From assembly GCF_003149145.1 (NCBI RefSeq), contig NZ_QGDQ01000021.1:1-64000 (forward strand): a DNA stretch of 64,000 nt, given 5' to 3'. A model generated the notes under the pieces. It was given only the letters and a program-made list of their open reading frames with translations. It made no database searches and was not told the origin of the DNA. Below are positions 2,754-49,545 of the stretch, piece after piece (position 1 is the stretch's first letter; every line of letters begins with the position of its first letter). The translations under genes and the position numbers were made by a program. The stretch is from Quadrisphaera granulorum. Its GTDB lineage: Bacteria; Actinomycetota; Actinomycetes; Actinomycetales; Quadrisphaeraceae.

Positions 2754-3716
2754 TCAGGTGAGCACGCGCACGGGCGCCCCCGCGAGCCATGCGACGACGT
2801 CCTCGAGCGCCTCCCCGTAGAACGTCCGGTACGTCGTCTCCGTGACGTATCCGACGTGCGGGGTGAGCACAGTGCGAGGCGCGGTGCGCAGCGGGTGGTC
2901 GTGGGGGAGAGGTTCTTCATCGAACACGTCGAGTCCCGCGCCGCCGAGGTGCCCCGAGTGCAGTGCCTCCAGCAGCGCAGCCTCGTCGACGAGCGGCCCC
3001 CGCGAGGTGTTGACGAGCAGCGCCCCGGGCTTCATGAGCGCCAGCTCCCGCGCACCGATGATCCCGCGAGACCGCTCCGACAGCTTGAGGTGCAGCGTCA
3101 CGGCGTCGGAGCGGGCCAGCAGGTCGTCCTTGGTGGTGGGCTCGACGCCGAGGCTGCGGGCCAGGTCGGGGTCGAGGTGCTGGGACCACGCGATCACGTG
3201 CATGTCGAACGCCTGCGCCACGCGCGCCACCCGCTGACCGAGCTTGCCCAACCCGACGACACCGAGGACGCCGCCCGCCAGGTCACCCCCGATGCCGGAC
3301 GCCCGTTCCAGCCGTTGCTGCCACGCCCCCGCGCGCACGCCCGCGTCCAGGCGCGGCACCTGCTTCACGAGTGCGAGCAGCAGCGCCCACGTGAGTTCCG
3401 CCGTCCCCGGCTCCACCATCCCGGTGCCGCAGACGACGACGCCGCGGGCGCGGCAGGCGTCGAGGTCGATGGCGGCGTTGCCCATCGCCGTCGTCACCAG
3501 CAGGCGTAGGTCGGGCAGGTCGGCGAGGAGGGCCGCGTCGAAGGGGGTGCGCTCGCGCATCGCCACCACCACGGTGGCCCCGGCGAGCGCGCCCCGCAGC
3601 GCGGAGCCGGTGAGGTGCTGGTGGACGACGTCGACGTCGACGTCGTCTGGCAGCGAGCCCCAGTCCGCGCAGTCGAGCGCGACGTGCTGGTAGTCGTCGA
3701 GAAGAACGATCCTCAC
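2754..3716 (-). CDS. D-2-hydroxyacid dehydrogenase family protein (NAD-binding)
   Basis: The 320-residue protein has the D-isomer-specific 2-hydroxyacid dehydrogenase layout: a split catalytic domain at both ends and a Rossmann domain near residues 100-285. GVVGLGKLGQRVARV is the dinucleotide-binding motif, and LVNTSRGPLVDEAALLEAL and LDVFDEEPLPHDHPL are family signatures; LTPHVGY contains the likely catalytic histidine. Substrate cannot be told from sequence; glyoxylate/hydroxypyruvate or phosphoglycerate-like acids are typical. The GTG start lies 6 bases after a TAGCGT hexamer, which supports a leaderless mRNA and fixes the start. Confidence 0.88.
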   Translation of the reverse strand: MRIVLLDDYQHVALDCADWGSLPDDVDVDVVHQHLTGSALRGALAGATVVVAMRERTPFDAALLADLPDLRLLVTTAMGNAAIDLDACRARGVVVCGTGMVEPGTAELTWALLLALVKQVPRLDAGVRAGAWQQRLERASGIGGDLAGGVLGVVGLGKLGQRVARVAQAFDMHVIAWSQHLDPDLARSLGVEPTTKDDLLARSDAVTLHLKLSERSRGIIGARELALMKPGALLVNTSRGPLVDEAALLEALHSGHLGGAGLDVFDEEPLPHDHPLRTAPRTVLTPHVGYVTETTYRTFYGEALEDVVAWLAGAPVRVLT

Positions 3717-3728
3717 GCATCGACGCTA
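3717..3728 (-). promoter_or_regulatory. Candidate -10 box for leaderless dehydrogenase mRNA
   Basis: TAGCGT on the minus strand, then 6 bases (CGATGC), then the GTG start. The spacing would place the transcription start on the start codon. No clear -35 box is visible. Confidence 0.5.
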
Positions 3729-3777
3729 CGCGGCGACGGTGCCGCGCAGCGCCCCGGCGACGTGCCGGGAGGCGGGA

Positions 3778-3957
3778 TCAGCGAGAGGCGCTGACCGCGG
3801 GGAAGCCGGGGGAGGTCCAGGAGACGCCGCCCTCGTCGAAGCACCCCGCGCACTCGCAAGCGGGCCAGCTAAGGCCGTCCTTGTGGCTGCGCGGCTGCGG
3901 GACGAGGCCCGGCTCGACGGCGTGCAGGTCCAGGGCGAAGGCGTGATGTCTGTCCAC
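3778..3957 (-). CDS. Possible small hypothetical protein with a Cys-Glu-Cys motif
   Basis: This 59-residue frame reads protein-like, with DGLSWPACECAGCFDEGGVSW near its end and three cysteines in CECAGC. AGGAGG lies 11 bases before the GTG used here; a longer in-frame ATG exists upstream at 4056 but its extension is low in quality. It sits between the 2-hydroxyacid dehydrogenase and a membrane gene, all on the same strand. I cannot name a family, and overlapping plus-strand frames are also open, so this is tentative. Confidence 0.3.
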   Translation of the reverse strand: MDRHHAFALDLHAVEPGLVPQPRSHKDGLSWPACECAGCFDEGGVSWTSPGFPAVSASR

Positions 3958-4137
3958 AGGTCCAGCATCCTCCTCTCGGAGGCCCCTCGCTGGCGTTCCG
4001 GACGCTCTCCAGACGCTGTCCAGTCGACGTGCAGACACCCGTCGGTCTTCTGTCATCTCCGCGGGGCATCGACCCGTAGCCCTGGACGGATCGACCGGCG
4101 AGTGAGAGCGGACGTGCAGACCAGCGGCGCGAGGCCG

Positions 4138-4578
4138 TTAGTCGAGCCACCAGCTGGCGATCGGGCTGAGCGCGGCGCAGCCGGCGAGCATCGCCACCGC
4201 CAGGAGGACCACGGCAGCTGACGGCACCATCTCGCGCGGTGACCGGTGATCGTGCACCGACTGCAGCACATCGGCCCCGGAGACCATCAGCGCCGAGAAC
4301 CCCGCCAGCGGTGCGGTGGCGATCGCCAGGTAGCCGAGCACCTGGCTCAGCGTGGACGGCGGGTCGGGCAGGTCACGGGGGTCGTAAGCGCCATTGCTGA
4401 TCTGATCCACCGGCACCTGCAGCAGACCATTGGCCAGGTATCCGTGCAGAACGGTCACAGCGAACAGCCCCGCGCAAGCGATGACGGTGCCGGTGATCAG
4501 GAGGAGCTGGCGCGGGCGGAGGGGACCCAAGGGGCCCTCGACGAGGTCAGCGCTGACCGCGTCGTCGGAGACGCTCAT
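4138..4578 (-). CDS. Small membrane protein of unknown function
   Basis: The protein is 146 residues from the chosen ATG (MSVSDDAVSADLVEG). Three hydrophobic segments are visible: LLLITGTVIACAGLFAVTVL near 25-45, LGYLAIATAPLAGFSALMV near 80-100 and AAVVLLAVAMLAGCAALSP near 118-138. An upstream ATG would add 14 residues of low-complexity sequence, so I used the internal one. No conserved domain is recognised. Confidence 0.6.
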   Translation of the reverse strand: MSVSDDAVSADLVEGPLGPLRPRQLLLITGTVIACAGLFAVTVLHGYLANGLLQVPVDQISNGAYDPRDLPDPPSTLSQVLGYLAIATAPLAGFSALMVSGADVLQSVHDHRSPREMVPSAAVVLLAVAMLAGCAALSPIASWWLD

Positions 4579-40801: not shown

Positions 40802-42367
40802 GTGGACCTGACATCGGCGCTCGTTCCCATCGTCGCGATCGGCGTCGTCATCGTCGTCGTCCTGGCGGTGGTCTTCGCTCTCGCCCGGCGCTACAAGATC
40901 GCCAGCCCGTCGGAGGCGTTCATCGTCACCGGCCGCAAGGGCAAAGCGGTGACCAATCCCGAGACGGGGCAAGTCTCCACCGACCTGTCGGGCCAGCGCG
41001 TGGTCATGGGCGGCGGTGTCTTCGTCAAGCCGCTGGTCGAGCGCGTGCACGTGTTGTCGCTGAGCAGCCGCCGGATCTCGGTGAAGATCGGCGGGGCCGT
41101 CTCCAAGCAGGGCATCCGCCTGAATCTCGACGCCGTCGCCATCGTCAAGGTGGGTGGCTCCGAGGACAACGTGCGCGCCGCTGCGCAGCGCTTCCTGCAC
41201 CAGCAGGACGAGATCGAGTCGTTCACGCAGGAGGTGCTCGCCGGTTCGCTGCGGTCCATCGTCGGAACGCTCACCGTCGACGAGATCATCCGTGACCGCG
41301 CCGCCTTCGCCACGCAGGTGGCCGAGGAGTCGATCTCCTCGCTGAGCAACCAGGGTCTGGTGCTTGACACCTTCCAGATCCAGGACGTCTCCGACGACAC
41401 CAACTACCTTCGCGACCTGGGCCGCCCCGAGGCCGCCGCCGCGGCCCGCAACGCCGCCATCGCCGAGGCCGCCGCCCGCCGCGAGGCGAGCCAGGCCCAG
41501 GCCAAGGCCGACGAGGCCATCGCCGAGTCCCAGCGCGACCTCGACCTGCGTCGCTCCGCGTTCAAGGCCGACACCGACAGGGCCGCCGCCGACGCCGAGG
41601 CCGCCGGCTCCCTGGCCAAGGCCGAGCGCGACCAGGAGGTGCTCACCAGCCAGGAGCGCGTGGCCGAGCGGCAGGCGGCCCTCACCGAGCGCCAGCTCGA
41701 CACGCAGGTCCGTAAGCCCGCCGACGCCGCCCGCTACCAGGCCGAGCAGGAGGCCCAGGGCCGCCGCAACGCGGAGATCTTCCAGGCCGAGGGCGCCAAG
41801 GCCACCGCCATCGCCGAGGCCGAGGCGGAAGCCGAGCGCACCCGCCTGGCCACCGCCGCGAACGCCGAGCGGGCCACCACGTTCGCCAAGGCCGACGCCG
41901 ACGCCGCCCGCGTCGCCGCTGCAGCCGCCGCCGAGAAGGTGCGGCTGGAGGGTGAGGCCGAGCTGGCCCGCCGCACCGCCATCGCCAACGCCGTCCGCGC
42001 CGAGGGTGAGGCGGAGGCCGCCGCCATCCGCGCGAAGGGCGAGGCGGAGGCCGAGACGCAGCGCCTGCGCGCCGAGGCGTTCGAGCGGTACGGCCAGGCC
42101 GCCACCACGCAGATGGTGGTCGAGGCGCTGCCCAAGGTCGCGCGCGAGCTCGCTGCGCCGATGGCCGCCATCAGCGACCTCACGGTCATCTCCACCGACG
42201 GCGCGAGCGCCCTGTCCAAGGGCGTCGCCACCAACCTCACCGAGACCCTCGAGCTGGTGCGGCGCACCACGGGCGTGGACGTCGGTGCCCTCCTGCGCCG
42301 CAGCGCCGCGGGAGCCGGCGGCGACAGCACCACCCGCACCCCGGCCGACGCCGACGCCGACGCCTGA
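40802..42367 (+). CDS. Flotillin/SPFH-domain membrane protein
   Basis: The 521-residue protein has an N-terminal membrane segment (VAIGVVIVVVLAVVFALARR, about 11-30), an SPFH/band-7 domain (about 35-210, with VFVKPLVERVHVLSLSSRRI and IVGTLTVDEIIRDRAAFATQ), and a long Ala/Glu-rich coiled coil (about 215-430) with the A-E-A-E-A-E repeats of flotillins. It should form oligomeric membrane microdomain scaffolds. The C-terminal 60 residues include the flotillin end LPKVARELAAPMAAISDLTV. It starts the cluster that runs to the DUF350 gene. Confidence 0.92.
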   Translation: MDLTSALVPIVAIGVVIVVVLAVVFALARRYKIASPSEAFIVTGRKGKAVTNPETGQVSTDLSGQRVVMGGGVFVKPLVERVHVLSLSSRRISVKIGGAVSKQGIRLNLDAVAIVKVGGSEDNVRAAAQRFLHQQDEIESFTQEVLAGSLRSIVGTLTVDEIIRDRAAFATQVAEESISSLSNQGLVLDTFQIQDVSDDTNYLRDLGRPEAAAAARNAAIAEAAARREASQAQAKADEAIAESQRDLDLRRSAFKADTDRAAADAEAAGSLAKAERDQEVLTSQERVAERQAALTERQLDTQVRKPADAARYQAEQEAQGRRNAEIFQAEGAKATAIAEAEAEAERTRLATAANAERATTFAKADADAARVAAAAAAEKVRLEGEAELARRTAIANAVRAEGEAEAAAIRAKGEAEAETQRLRAEAFERYGQAATTQMVVEALPKVARELAAPMAAISDLTVISTDGASALSKGVATNLTETLELVRRTTGVDVGALLRRSAAGAGGDSTTRTPADADADA

Positions 42368-42382
42368 GGTCCGACGGCTCTG

Positions 42383-43285
42383 GTGGGCGTGAGGCTCCCG
42401 CTCCGCCCGCAGGGTGGAGGGCTGGTGGAGGTGGCCAGTCCCTTCACGCCGGGCATGCTCTCGCTGTTGCGACGCGGGGTCCGCGTGGTGCAGCTCGCGA
42501 CGCCGCTGACCGACCGCGATCACCGCAGGCTCGGCTCCTGGTTCCAGGAGCACCCGCAGGCCGCGCTGCGCGTCTGCGCCGGGGGGCTCGGGGACGGCGC
42601 TGACCTGTCCTTCCTCCGGCACTACCCCCGGCTCACCGGCCTGAGCATCGACTCACTCGACCATGAGGTCGTGCTCGGCCCTCAGAGTCTGGATCACCTG
42701 CCGACGCCGCTGCGCGACCTCCGCCTGGAAGCACGGGCCCGCGATCTCAGACCCCTGGCCGGGGTCACCCAGCTCGAGCACCTGAAGCTCCGATCGGTCA
42801 CGGCTGACCTCGCGCCCCTGACGGCGCTGACCCGGCTGCGCACGCTGGAGATCCGCCTCGGAGGGATCACCGACCTCAGCGTCGTCCCCGAGATCGGCCG
42901 GATCACCTACCTCGAGCTGTGGCTGGTCCGCGGCCTCGCCGACGTGAGCTTCCTCGCCGATATGGGCCACCTCGAGCACCTGTTCCTGCAAGCTCTCCGG
43001 AACGTCCGCGCACTGCCGGACCTCTCTCGGTGCACGGCGCTCGAGCGGGTCCACCTGGAGACGATGAAGGGGCTGGTCGACCTCTCAGCCCTCGCTACCG
43101 CCCCCGCCCTGCGGCAGCTCTCGTTGGTCGACGTCGGTCACCTGTGCCCAGAGGATCTGCTGCCGCTGAAGACCTGTGGCGCACTGGAGGAGCTGGGCGT
43201 CGGCTTGAACAGCGACCGCAAGAACCTGGCGGCGCGAGCGCTCCTGCAGATCCCCGGCTCCTACGGTGGTCACGACTGGCCGTAG
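42383..43285 (+). CDS. Leucine-rich-repeat-like protein
   Basis: The 300-residue protein contains about eight regularly spaced repeats with leucines at the positions of bacterial LRRs: LRDLRLEARARDLRPLAGVT, QLEHLKLRSVTADLAPLTAL, RLRTLEIRLGGITDLSVVPE, ITYLELWLVRGLADVSFLAD, HLEHLFLQALRNVRALPDLS and further ones. No signal peptide, so the curved repeat likely binds a protein partner in the cytoplasm. It lies 15 bases after the flotillin stop on the same strand, so it is probably in the same transcript. Function unknown. Confidence 0.72.
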   Translation: MGVRLPLRPQGGGLVEVASPFTPGMLSLLRRGVRVVQLATPLTDRDHRRLGSWFQEHPQAALRVCAGGLGDGADLSFLRHYPRLTGLSIDSLDHEVVLGPQSLDHLPTPLRDLRLEARARDLRPLAGVTQLEHLKLRSVTADLAPLTALTRLRTLEIRLGGITDLSVVPEIGRITYLELWLVRGLADVSFLADMGHLEHLFLQALRNVRALPDLSRCTALERVHLETMKGLVDLSALATAPALRQLSLVDVGHLCPEDLLPLKTCGALEELGVGLNSDRKNLAARALLQIPGSYGGHDWP

Positions 43286-43317
43286 CCTCAGCGCTTCCGA
43301 TCGTGTGGGAGGAACGG

Positions 43318-43839
43318 GTGAGGAAGTCGGCAGCGGTGCCGCTCATCATCACGTCGTCGTTGGCGCTGGCCCTGTCCGGATGCTCGGGCAGCACGGACAA
43401 CGGCTCCGGCAGTTCTGACGGCTCCGACGCGGAGTACCAGGGGGTCTGCGTCAACCAGACGACCGGCCAGCGCGCCGATGACGACGACTGCGGCGAGGAC
43501 GACGGCCACGGCGGCACGGGCGGCTCCGGCGGCGGCCACTACTGGTACTACGGCGGTCGCGGCGCCCGGATCCCCGCGGTCGGCTCGGCCATGCCGACTG
43601 GCGGCGGCAGCAGCAGCACCGGGGGCTCGGGCAGCCAGAACGGGCAGTACGCGGGCTTCGACCGCAGCGTGCCGGACGGCTCGACCTTCGTGTCGGGAGG
43701 AGCCGACCGCGCCGGAGGCACCGTCAGCGACGACAGCCTGCGCACGGCGTCGTCGTCCAGCGGCCGGGTGCTCAGCGTGACGGAGTCGGGAAGCACCGTG
43801 CGCGGCGGACTCGGCGGCGGCTCGAAGGCCGGCAGCTGA
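43318..43839 (+). CDS. YgiB-like glycine/serine-rich lipoprotein
   Basis: GGGAGG lies 5 bases before the GTG start. The signal peptide RKSAAVPLIITSSLALALSG ends in lipobox LSGC. The mature 150 residues are Gly/Ser-rich, with YQGVCVNQTTGQRADDDDCG (two cysteines), HYWYYGGRGARIP and a C-terminal SGSTVRGGLGGGSKAGS, which resembles the end of the enterobacterial YgiB (DUF1190) lipoprotein. YgiB and its paralogue lie beside an ATP-grasp glutathionylspermidine synthase-like gene in E. coli, and here the next gene encodes one. Assignment rests on tail, context and size. Confidence 0.65.
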   Translation: MRKSAAVPLIITSSLALALSGCSGSTDNGSGSSDGSDAEYQGVCVNQTTGQRADDDDCGEDDGHGGTGGSGGGHYWYYGGRGARIPAVGSAMPTGGGSSSTGGSGSQNGQYAGFDRSVPDGSTFVSGGADRAGGTVSDDSLRTASSSSGRVLSVTESGSTVRGGLGGGSKAGS

Positions 43840-43850
43840 GTGACCGCCCG

Positions 43851-45065
43851 GTGAAGAGGATCCGCACCACACCGCGCCCGGGGTGGCGCGAGACGGTCGT
43901 GTCGCAGGGGCTCGTCTACCCGATGACGCCGTCGCGCAACGGTCTCGGCGAGCAGGAGTACTGGTTCGAGCGGGCCTGCTACGTGCTGAGCAGCGACGAG
44001 GTGGACCACCTCGAGACCGTCACCGAGCGCGTCCACACGATGTGCGTCGAGGCCGCCCGCTACCTGTGCAGCGGTGAGCTGGGAGACCTCGGACTGCCGC
44101 CGGGTGCGCTGGAGGCGGCTCGCGTCTCCTTCGACGCCGCGCCGCCATCGTTGTACGGCAGGTTCGACCTGCGCTTCGACGGCCGCGACGACGCTCCCGC
44201 CAAGGTCCTCGAGTACAACGCCGACACTCCCACCGGGCTCGTCGAGGCGAGCGTCGCCCAGTGGTACTGGTTGCAGGACGTCGCCCCCGAGCTCGACCAG
44301 TGGAACTCCCTGCACGAGCGCCTGGTCGAGGCCTGGCGCGGCATCCGCCAGCGCACGGGCCTCGGCGTGCTGCACCTGGCGCACCTCGGCGCGGAGAAGA
44401 GCGGCGAGGAGGAGATGACCGTCGGCTACCTGCGCGACTGCGCCGACCAAGCCGGCTGGTCCACGTGCCAGCTCCAGGTGGAGCAGCTGGGGTGGAACCC
44501 CGACGTCCAGCGGTTCATCGGGCTGGACGACGACGTCATCGACGTCCTCTTCAAGCTCTACCCCTGGGAGGACGTGCTCTGGGAAGACTTCGGCGCGCAC
44601 GCCCTGAGCACCCTGGAGCAAGGCGCGACGGTCTGGCTGGAGCCGCTGTGGAAGGTGGTGCTGTCCAACAAGGCGCTGCTCGTGGCGCTGTGGCGGTGCT
44701 TCCCGGGCCACGAGAACCTCCTGCCCGCGTCGATGGGCGAGCCCAACGGCATGACCGAGTGGGTGAAGAAGCCCTTGCACGGGCGCGAGGGCGACAACAT
44801 CGAGGTCTCCTCCCGCGACCTCTCCCTGGTCCAGCCGGGGGAGTACGGCGAGGAGGGCTTCGTCTACCAGCAGTACGTGCGGATGCCCGACTTCGAGGGC
44901 AACAAGGCTGTGGTCGGTAGCTGGATCGTGGACGGCAAGGCAGCCGGGTGCGGGATCCGCGAGAGCGACTCCCCGGTCACCGACTACTACGCGCGCTTCG
45001 TGCCGCACCACATCGACGGGCCGGCACCGAGCCCGCAGCAGCGGGCCGCGTGGCTCGCCGAGTGA
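43851..45065 (+). CDS. Glutathionylspermidine synthase-like ATP-grasp ligase (YgiC/YjfC family)
   Basis: The 404-residue protein matches the synthetase domain of glutathionylspermidine synthase: RPGWRETVVSQGLVYPMTPS, GRFDLRFDGRDDAPAKVLEYN with ADTPTGLVEASVAQW, LPASMGEPNGMTEWVKKPLHG and YVRMPDFEGNKAVVGSWIVDG with GIRESDSPVTDYYARFVPH. It lacks the amidase domain of E. coli GspS, as do YgiC and YjfC. The family joins a peptide or amino acid carboxylate to an amine using ATP; actinobacteria use mycothiol rather than glutathione, so the true substrate is unlikely to be glutathionylspermidine. GTG start 11 bases after the lipoprotein gene. Confidence 0.92.
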   Translation: MKRIRTTPRPGWRETVVSQGLVYPMTPSRNGLGEQEYWFERACYVLSSDEVDHLETVTERVHTMCVEAARYLCSGELGDLGLPPGALEAARVSFDAAPPSLYGRFDLRFDGRDDAPAKVLEYNADTPTGLVEASVAQWYWLQDVAPELDQWNSLHERLVEAWRGIRQRTGLGVLHLAHLGAEKSGEEEMTVGYLRDCADQAGWSTCQLQVEQLGWNPDVQRFIGLDDDVIDVLFKLYPWEDVLWEDFGAHALSTLEQGATVWLEPLWKVVLSNKALLVALWRCFPGHENLLPASMGEPNGMTEWVKKPLHGREGDNIEVSSRDLSLVQPGEYGEEGFVYQQYVRMPDFEGNKAVVGSWIVDGKAAGCGIRESDSPVTDYYARFVPHHIDGPAPSPQQRAAWLAE

Positions 45066-45114
45066 CCGACGGCTGTCGAGCAGAGATCGACCAGGGATCG
45101 AGCAGGAGGTCCGC

Positions 45115-45552
45115 GTGGACGGGTTGGCGATGGCGGTCGGTGCTGCCGCGGTGTACACGGCGGTGGGGCTCGGGCTGCTGCTCGTGGGCTTCTACGCCCT
45201 CGACCTCATCGTGCCGGGCAAGCTGGCCACACGGGTGTTCCGCGACGCCGAGCCCGGCGCGGCGCTGGTCACCGCCGCCGGTGCCCTCGGTGTCGGGCTG
45301 ATCACCTTCACCACCATCTGGCGCAACGCCGACGCCGGCTTCGGGCCGGCGCTGCTGTGGACGATCGTCTTCGGACTGGTCGGCATCGTCATGCAGGCCG
45401 TGGCGCTCTTCGTGCTCGACCTGCTGACACCCGGCAAGCTCGGTGACCTCGTGTGCACCCATCTGCCCACCGGAGCGATGCACCCCGCCGCCTGGGTGAC
45501 CTCGGCGTTCCAGCTGGCCATGGCCGGCGTCGTCGTCGCCTCGGTGGCCTGA
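45115..45552 (+). CDS. DUF350 membrane protein
   Basis: The 145-residue protein has four membrane helices (about 8-30, 45-68, 78-102, 120-143) in two similar halves, each with a P-G-K-L motif ([12 protein letters not shown] and [12 protein letters not shown]), the DUF350 pattern. DUF350 proteins (YjfL type) occur beside YjfM lipoprotein and YjfC ligase in E. coli. AGGAGG lies 6 bases before the GTG start. It ends the proposed cluster, 71 bases before hisE. Confidence 0.88.
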
Positions 45553-47480: not shown

Positions 47481-49436
47481 GTGCGCATATCGGAGCTCGC
47501 CCCCCGGCGGTGGACGACCAGAGCGGCAGCGGTCACTGCCGTCCTCCTCACCATCGCCCTGACCGGCCTCTCGACCGGCTTCGTCGCCGGGCCCGCCCAG
47601 GCCGCTGACCGCACGGCGTTCCCCGACGCGAAGCCCGCGTGGGCCACCGCGGCCTCGGACGCCGGTGCTGCACCGGCCGACACATCGGTGGAGGGCTACC
47701 TGGCGCTGCCGCTCCGGGACGCCGCCGGTGCCCGCGCCCTCGCCGTCGCCGTGTCGACACCGACTTCCGCCCGGTACGGCCAGTTCGTCTCGGCCCAGCA
47801 GTGGATCTCGACCTATGCACCGACGCAGACCACCGTCGACGTCGTGACGGCGCTCCTGCGGGCCTACGGGATGACCGTCACCGCGGTGCCCGCCAGCCGT
47901 ACCTACGTCGTCTTCCGCGGCCCCGCCGACAAGGTCAACCGGTTGTTCGGCACGTCGCTGCGGCAGTACCGCGTCGACGGCGACACGGTGACCGCACCCT
48001 CCAGCACCCCGTCGCTGCCATCCTCCGTCGGCGCGCTCGTGAGCTCGGTGAGCCTGTCCGGTGGCGCGCTGAAGGCCCGGCCGGGTGCCCTGTCACCGGG
48101 GCGGGAGAAGCCGGCATCGTTCGCGCGAGCCGGGCAGGCGGCGCCCGCGCAGCAGGTGCCCTGCTCGGACTTCTGGGGCCAGCGGTCCTTCACCGCTCCG
48201 CGGGCCTACGGGCGCACGTCGTTCCCGACCAACATCTGCGGGTACACCGCGGCCCAGATGCGGGCGGTGTCCGGAACCGTCCCCGGGGACGGCGCCGGCC
48301 AGACCGTGGCCATCGTCGACGCGTACGCCTCGCCGACCGTCGTCGCCGACAGCAACAAGCTGTTCGCCGCGCAGGGCGAGCCCGGCATCAGCGGGCTGTA
48401 CTCGGAGATCGGCGTCGACAGGTCGACCTTCACCGACCAGGAGGCCTGCCAGGGGGAGGAGGCGTGGCAGGGGGAGCAGTCCCTCGACGTCCAGGCCGTC
48501 CACGCGGTCGCGCCGAAGGCGCGCATCGTCTACTCCGCCGGCGCGAACTGCGGCGCTGGGCTGTACATCGCCGTCTCGCGGGTGCTCGACACCCAGGCGG
48601 CGTCGGTGATCTCGAACAGCTGGGGCATCCCGGAGCAGTACCTCGTGTCCGCTGACCGGGCCATCTACGACTACCAGGGCTGGCAGGCCGCCGCCCAGGG
48701 CATCGGTCTGTACGCCTCCAGCGGTGACGACGGCGACGAGACCATCAACGACATCCCCAAGCAGGTCGGCTTCCCTGCGGCGCACCCGTTCTGGACGGCC
48801 GTGGGCGGCACCTCGGTGGGCGTCGACGCCTCAGGGCGTATCGCCGTCGAGACCGGCTGGGGCAACGCGCGGTCCGTCATCACGGGGACGGCCTATGACC
48901 CGGCGCCGCCCGGCGACTTCTACGCCGGTGCCGGTGGCGGCACCGGGACGATCTACCGCGAGCCCGACTGGCAGCGCGGCGTGGTGCCCGACGCCATCTC
49001 GCGCGGCTACCGCGCGGTACCGGACATCGCCAACATCGCCGACCCGTACACGGGCTTCCTCACCGGGTACACCCCGATCCTCGAGGACGGGTCGACCGCC
49101 ACGGGGGAGTACGAGGCCTATCCCACCGGGGGGACGTCCCTGGCGTCGCCGATGGTCGCCGCCCAGGTCGCCGCGGTGCAGGGGCGTATCGGCGCGCGCG
49201 TCGGGTTCGCCAGCCCCGCGATCTACCAGCTTGCCAAGGTGGCTCCCTCCGTGGTCCGCGACGTCAAGGCGCCTGCGGGCACGCTCGCGCTGGCGTCGTT
49301 CTCGCCCAGCAAGCAGGCCAACGTCCTGGTCACCCTCGACCGCGACTCCTCCCTGCGGACGACGAACGGCTGGGACGCGGTGACGGGTCTCGGGGTGCTG
49401 CCGCTGGACTCCTGGCAGCGCCTCGCGCAGCGGTAA
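47481..49436 (+). CDS. Secreted S53 (sedolisin/kumamolisin-like) acid protease
   Basis: The 651-residue protein has a signal peptide (about 1-42, ending GPAQAAD), an activation propeptide (about 55-215, with AVAVSTPTSARYGQFVSAQQ, the pro-kumamolisin pattern) and the S53 catalytic domain. The catalytic Glu/Asp pair is in EQSLD (E-x3-D), the oxyanion Asp in SSGDDGDET and the catalytic Ser in GGTSLASPM. The usual end NGWDAVTGLGVLP is present. AAGGAG is 6 bases before the GTG. The 188 bases upstream carry two CAACCGG-containing repeats of unclear meaning. Confidence 0.93.
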   Translation: MRISELAPRRWTTRAAAVTAVLLTIALTGLSTGFVAGPAQAADRTAFPDAKPAWATAASDAGAAPADTSVEGYLALPLRDAAGARALAVAVSTPTSARYGQFVSAQQWISTYAPTQTTVDVVTALLRAYGMTVTAVPASRTYVVFRGPADKVNRLFGTSLRQYRVDGDTVTAPSSTPSLPSSVGALVSSVSLSGGALKARPGALSPGREKPASFARAGQAAPAQQVPCSDFWGQRSFTAPRAYGRTSFPTNICGYTAAQMRAVSGTVPGDGAGQTVAIVDAYASPTVVADSNKLFAAQGEPGISGLYSEIGVDRSTFTDQEACQGEEAWQGEQSLDVQAVHAVAPKARIVYSAGANCGAGLYIAVSRVLDTQAASVISNSWGIPEQYLVSADRAIYDYQGWQAAAQGIGLYASSGDDGDETINDIPKQVGFPAAHPFWTAVGGTSVGVDASGRIAVETGWGNARSVITGTAYDPAPPGDFYAGAGGGTGTIYREPDWQRGVVPDAISRGYRAVPDIANIADPYTGFLTGYTPILEDGSTATGEYEAYPTGGTSLASPMVAAQVAAVQGRIGARVGFASPAIYQLAKVAPSVVRDVKAPAGTLALASFSPSKQANVLVTLDRDSSLRTTNGWDAVTGLGVLPLDSWQRLAQR

Positions 49437-49452
49437 CCGCTCACCCCTCCGT

Positions 49453-49515
49453 GACGATCAAGGACGTTGTGCACGGTCACTGTCACGGTCACTGTGCACA
49501 ACGTCCTTGATCGTC
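49453..49515. terminator. Perfect 22-base-arm hairpin after the protease gene (family C)
   Basis: Arms run 49453-49474 and 49494-49515, exact complements containing GATCAAGGACGTTGTGCAC. The 19-base loop carries part of a CACGGTCACTGT direct repeat. It begins 17 bases after the protease stop and ends 43 bases before the next start. A one-arm relative lies at 11526-11546. Confidence 0.8.
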
Positions 49516-49545
49516 GCGAGGGGGGCGGCTGTCAGGGACGGCACG

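Follow-up and report, generated by a model that had tools for sequence, protein, structure and literature searches.

A row of five genes in Quadrisphaera granulorum raises two questions: what does its ATP-grasp ligase, a relative of glutathionylspermidine synthetase (GspS), act on, and which of the neighbouring genes act with it? The row lies in a 64,000-nucleotide stretch of contig NZ_QGDQ01000021.1 that was analysed as a whole (the window). All five genes are on the plus strand between 40802 and 45552 (Table 1), where the first-pass annotation had located them, and the families it had named are correct, as judged by Pfam for the flotillin, the leucine-rich repeat (LRR) protein, the ligase and the DUF350 protein. 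The last of these passes the PF03994 cut-off comfortably (67 bits vs 26). The flotillin carries the Band_7 and Flot domains of the FloT type (Pfam) and matches the NCBIfam FloT model at E 6.5e-85, yet with 286 of the 700 bits of the equivalog cut-off, which it misses.

Table 1. Positions of the row genes and of the lipoprotein tail in the window.
Feature	Position	Strand	Evidence or remark
Flotillin, FloT-like	40802..42367	+	Pfam Band_7 E 2.8e-25, Flot E 1.5e-9
Leucine-rich repeat protein, no signal peptide seen	42389..43285	+	Pfam LRR_4 E 7.2e-7
Lipoprotein, lipobox LSGC, glycine-rich C-terminal tail	43318..43839	+	YgiB/YjfM positional counterpart; no Pfam matches
Lipoprotein C-terminal tail TVRGGLGGGSKAGS	43795..43836	+	Proposed ligase substrate or docking site
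ATP-grasp ligase, YgiC/YjfC type	43851..45065	+	PF03738 GSP_synth E 4.6e-130, 371/371 positions
DUF350 (YjfL-like) membrane protein	45115..45552	+	PF03994 E 1.9e-18

The intergenic gaps along the row are 21, 32, 11 and 49 bases, with the LRR start set at the GTG at 42389 because a relative (L032) has an ATG at the matching point. The genes fmt, rsmB and rpe lie upstream and hisE and hisG downstream, all co-directional with the row; 88 bases separate rpe from the flotillin gene and 71 separate the DUF350 gene from hisE. A consensus scan for promoters and terminators at the row found none, and an Rfam scan gave no match. With that scan empty and co-directional genes on both flanks, the single upstream promoter proposed for the row is not borne out. 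Four of the five genes are kept in four other members of the genus, and dN/dS between the window genome and a congener (G007) is 0.10–0.31 across the flotillin, lipoprotein, ligase and DUF350 genes (flotillin 0.10, ligase 0.15). This conservation, together with these values, indicates that the genes are more than a product of chance. The LRR gene evolves faster than its neighbours, with a dN/dS of 0.40 in the same comparison. Elsewhere in the window, an inverted repeat at 49444–49524 (40-base arms, 85% complementary, 1-base spacer) lies just 3′ of a kumamolisin-type protease gene (47481–49436) and is possibly a bidirectional terminator.

The distribution of the row genes inside and outside the genus indicates that the flotillin is separable from the cassette of lipoprotein, ligase and DUF350 genes, and that the LRR gene is accessory. 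The genus sample comprised six genomes, including the window genome. The flotillin sits between rpe and hisE in all six, and the lipoprotein, ligase and DUF350 genes follow it in five. All three are missing from the sixth (G087; L071, 9611–9816), whose retained flotillin gene stops some 200 bases short of hisE. In a tree built from the flanking genes, G087 clusters with two trio-bearing genomes (G143 and G129), so that the absence is more simply explained as a loss. The loss is clean, which makes G087 a natural deletion strain for comparison. The LRR gene is found in the window genome and G007 only; in the flanking-gene tree the window genome pairs with G101 (support 0.90), which has no LRR gene. 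Since the two carriers are not sisters, the gene was either gained and lost or gained twice. The two LRR proteins show an internal length difference of 44 residues, and internalin-type LRR chains in the PDB match the LRR protein by sequence. Full-length relatives, at 37–43% identity, occur in Cellulomonas, in MAGs of Ilumatobacter, Odyssella and Planctomycetaceae, and in two genomes of the order. In the stretches read around those outside the genus, none of the other four row genes was found. The first-pass annotation had named LRR homologues at random positions as a result that would refute its reading, and this is the result obtained: the relatives occur on their own, with no flotillin, ligase or DUF350 gene beside them. 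Present in two of the six genus genomes and with relatives so placed, the LRR protein was rejected as a specific partner.

Beyond the genus, no flotillin was found near the ligase cassette within about 8 kb on each side in the order. One genome (G073) carries the cassette with no flotillin nearby, and five family genomes of other genera (G026, G043, G059, G115 and G157) have a flotillin and no ligase. The other-genus flotillins of the family are 68–78% identical, and none of the window's neighbours adjoins them. All 57 genomes searched had Band_7 proteins among the matches listed, which makes flotillin-like proteins common with or without the ligase. These patterns bear on the idea of a single five-gene flotillin microdomain module whose ligase would act, at a flotillin site, on a metabolite or peptide. 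The shared strand and tight spacing of the genes and the adjacency of flotillin and trio in most of the genus speak for it, as does the description of a band-7 variant of the operon (PMC11237479). The flotillin nevertheless persists without the trio in G087, flotillin and cassette occur apart in other genera of the family, and the LRR gene comes and goes and has its relatives elsewhere. A module of this kind is very improbable, and the flotillin was rejected as a member of it. The presence and absence of genes across genus and family do not support the part that the first-pass annotation had given to the flotillin and the LRR protein. The flotillin is probably a neighbour rather than an obligate component; both are genus-level neighbours, local extras of the cassette.

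The functional unit is then the lipoprotein, the YgiC-type ATP-grasp ligase and the DUF350 protein, a Gram-positive version of E. coli yjfM-yjfC-yjfL; loss of the trio as one unit in G087 counts in its favour. The ligase is present in 29 of 198 genomes of the order. In these the lipoprotein gene directly precedes the ligase gene nearly always, and DUF350 adjoins the ligase in 12 and is entirely absent from 14. All-against-all ORF clustering of the neighbourhoods yielded mostly opposite-strand shadow ORFs of high-GC DNA and was useful only for the ligase and the lipoprotein. The lipoprotein body contains a conserved VCVxxxTxxRxxDDxC motif. In an alignment of 26 homologues (A1), Cys44, Thr49, Arg52, Asp55 and Cys58 are invariant, as are Gly163, Gly164 and Gly166 of the tail. 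The lipoprotein and the ligase co-occur almost perfectly: a profile of A1 gave matches below 1e-18 in 26 of the order's 29 ligase genomes, always adjoining the ligase. Among the 169 ligase-less genomes of the order there was no such match; four gave weak partial ones (1e-4 to 1e-3). No match was found in G087, from which the ligase has been lost. Hits in the genomes of origin are expected, because the profile was built from them, and the informative part is the absence elsewhere. By Pfam, the window lipoprotein has no match to PF06693 (DUF1190), and 4 of the 26 homologues match it (best E 0.026); YgiB and YjfM do so at E 2.9e-55 and 2.9e-17. One genome (G015) holds two ligases (L052 and L053), each with its own tailed partner gene. 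In another (G050:C4:237872-240889), a strong spermidine-synthase-family gene has a DUF350 gene close by, at a site separate from the ligase locus; DUF350 is therefore also paired with polyamine genes independently of the ligase.

GspS couples spermidine to glutathione through the C-terminal glycine of the tripeptide, and the first-pass annotation had argued that the substrate of the window ligase must differ. The ligase has a full GSP_synth domain, lacks the amidase domain and is closest to YgiC and YjfC, which RefSeq names peptide-spermidine ligases. Its nearest solved chains are YgiC (7uk8, E 1e-75) and YjfC (7uk6, E 1.5e-65), with glutathionylspermidine and trypanothione synthetases (TryS) as far weaker matches (E 1e-17 to 1e-22). 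The catalytic residues are intact. Arg104, Asp106, Glu121, Asn123 and Arg370 align with Arg316, Asp318, Glu330, Asn332 and Arg598 of E. coli GspS, which we take to be the ATP/Mg and catalytic residues identified from the GspS structure, and the five are conserved in 58 of 59 ligases compared. For such residues, PMC2702004 supports conservation within the family and no more than that. The window ligase thus has the ATP/Mg residues of the YgiC/YjfC class, and it shares the motif NAD-TPT with the YgiC group, where GspS and TryS have NAD-SAS. Published activity of YgiC/YjfC is on peptides and spermidine (Pederick 2023, as cited in PMC12568646), and YgiC is described as being without GspS activity (Sui 2012, in the passage citing it in PMC12506659). 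Glutathionylspermidine synthetase activity is therefore unlikely for the window ligase, in agreement with the first-pass annotation.

The gene adjoining the ligase encodes a protein with a conserved C-terminal tail. Its consensus is approximately RGG[F/L/Y]G-x(7-14)-G[G/S]-COOH. The 65 ligase loci compared come from the order and the wider phylum, from plasmids belonging to other phyla, and from E. coli K-12. The tail is carried by the gene adjoining the ligase at 58 of the 65, compared with 3 of 2607 other ORFs, a ratio that is approximate because the background ORFs come from other positions of the same loci and many are non-genes. The pattern behind these counts was widened after misses had been seen and was applied to directly adjacent genes only. 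A stricter pattern, chosen first, gave 51 of 65 loci against 4 of 6458 ORFs; three of the 51 involve spurious matches such as those at L125 and L131 (the second hit of L057 aside). Tailed loci span Actinomycetota, Deinococcota and both alpha- and gamma-Proteobacteria. The last residue is Gly in 44 of the 58 tails and Ser in the other 14, an end that the tail script preferred without requiring; 43 tails end in Gly-Gly, and in nearly all of the 58 the motif lies 7–14 residues before the C-terminus. The window lipoprotein ends in ...GSTVRGGLGGGSKAGS, of which TVRGGLGGGSKAGS is the tail element. It has the RGG[FY]G of the DUF1190 (YgiB/YjfM) proteins, with Leu for Phe. The lipoprotein of L037 ends in ...GGTVSRGGFGSSSKGGSTGG, and E. 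coli YjfM ends in STVSRGGYGRSSSARGHWGG (longer stretch ...ASTVSRGGYGRSSSARGHWGG); the end of YgiB carries the tail too (31 residues, not printed here). The Pfam DUF1190 model itself extends over the tail, and the YjfM match reaches model position 159 of 159. Proteobacterial and actinobacterial partner bodies align only in the signal peptide (hhalign), so the tail was kept while the body was not.

Seven loci were scored as tail-less. The miss at L050 is a contig edge, and in Paracoccus the tail is present on the gene downstream of the ligase, which the position rule of the script passed over. L131, L133 and L134 have divergent ligases that lack NADTPT and a tailed neighbour. The two that remain, L054 and L125, have NADTPT ligases without a tailed neighbour. 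L125 is a Photobacterium plasmid (ligase at 2980–4164), and the ligase's partner may be encoded at another site of the genome. On a Deinococcus ficus plasmid (L126, 2352–5008), a partner with a degenerate tail, SRGGLTSTARGALSSGG, precedes a YgiC-type ligase and a gene for an ion transporter, an arrangement that recalls the potassium-channel variants of PMC11237479. As DUF350 is missing from 14 of the order's 29 ligase genomes, the tail goes with the ligase and not with DUF350. The ligase column that differs most with the tail end, position 333, is Gly in 93% of the partners of Ser-ending tails and 27% of those of Gly-ending tails, figures uncorrected for kinship in groups that follow phylogeny. 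The differing columns track phylogeny, and we make no claim of coevolution between the last tail residue and the ligase. A literature search that stopped short of the likeliest primary papers found none linking the tail to the ligase.

The tail could instead serve glycine-rich lipoproteins in general as a surface or sorting signal and lie near the ligase only through a shared envelope-stress operon. The tails are of low complexity and rich in Gly and Ser, and the partner is an exported protein, as this explanation would have it. It is improbable all the same, for the RGGFG core is common to Gram-negative and Gram-positive envelopes, and no strong A1 match lies away from a ligase in the 198 genomes.

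Our leading reading, put forward tentatively, is that the ligase activates the C-terminal carboxylate of the tail and joins an amine to it. The tail C-terminus is proposed as the substrate because YgiC and YjfC are peptide-spermidine ligases and GspS uses a peptide ending in glycine. In this scheme, the ligase would use ATP to activate the partner tail (TVRGGLGGGSKAGS-COOH), and the amine would be joined to the C-terminus much as GspS links spermidine to the terminal glycine of glutathione. The RGGFG element would be what the ligase recognises, and the amine would be attached at the G[G/S] end. Modification would precede or accompany export, since the ligase has no signal peptide and the tail is expected to face the outside. 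The DUF350 protein may act in the membrane on the product or on its delivery. Several observations count against the tail as substrate. The ligase is cytosolic, while the partner has a lipobox or an N-terminal anchor that places the tail outside after export; the tail of the window genus ends in Ser rather than Gly and has Leu for Phe; the NADTPT ligases of L054 and L125 have no tailed neighbour; and a recognition tail could be a docking site without being modified.

Docking is the next best reading after the tail as substrate. Here, the ligase would make small diffusible peptide-amine conjugates, and the tail would only hold the ligase or its product at the membrane. The association between tail and ligase fits docking as well as it fits catalysis, and the lipoprotein is exported. 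However, docking would not require the Gly or Ser found at the extreme C-terminus in 58 of 58 tails, and GspS-type enzymes act on a C-terminal glycine. We regard docking alone as rather unlikely, even though the published activity concerns peptides and spermidine (as cited in PMC12568646).

The amine joined to the tail, if the tail is the substrate, need not be spermidine. The host lacks SpeD (PF02675), as do 197 of the order's 198 genomes, and its single match to the spermidine-synthase family is weak and partial, which makes spermidine by the usual route unlikely. In a SpeD-less host, spermidine would otherwise have to be imported or replaced. The name 'peptide-spermidine ligase' should for this reason be carried to SpeD-less organisms with caution, if at all. 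It is possible, although we hold this loosely, that a widespread system exists in Gram-negative and Gram-positive bacteria, in which YgiC-type ligases join an amine to the RGGFG...G[G/S] C-terminus of a dedicated membrane-anchored partner, with the amine in SpeD-less actinomycetes not coming from the usual spermidine route. The conserved tail offers a direct handle on the in-cell substrate of YgiC and YjfC, in E. coli K-12 and in actinomycetes alike. It could also link two long-uncharacterised gene pairs and several DUFs in one defined pathway of protein modification.

The parallel with E. coli yjfL-yjfM-yjfC and ygiB-ygiC drawn by the first-pass annotation is correct, and it extends to a partner gene followed by a ligase gene, the same catalytic residues, a DUF350 neighbour and the same partner tail. 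The window differs in that its partner body is not DUF1190 by the Pfam cut-off, PspA, YjfI and YjfK are missing from the row, the host order lacks SpeD, and a flotillin precedes the cassette in the genus. Compared with GspS/amidase and trypanothione synthetase, the window ligase shares the GSP_synth ATP-grasp fold and the ATP/Mg residues but has no amidase domain and has NAD-TPT for NAD-SAS. Operons of ligase, DUF350 and lipoprotein genes have been described with PspA, or with a band-7 protein replacing PspA (PMC11237479, mSystems 2024), and their ligase is termed an ATP-grasp peptide ligase related to glutathionylspermidine synthetase. The window has the same GspS-like ATP-grasp ligase, DUF350 and lipoprotein, and no PspA family gene was found by Pfam among the five row genes. 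Because a band-7 variant was already described, the novelty claimed for a flotillin in such a row is weakened. The published variant has a band-7-2TM-SHOCT protein and polyamine genes, whereas in the window the protein is a FloT-like flotillin, with no polyamine gene seen next to it. The lipoprotein–ligase(–DUF350) cassette is therefore of a known kind, and the conserved tail beside the ligases is the part that goes beyond it.
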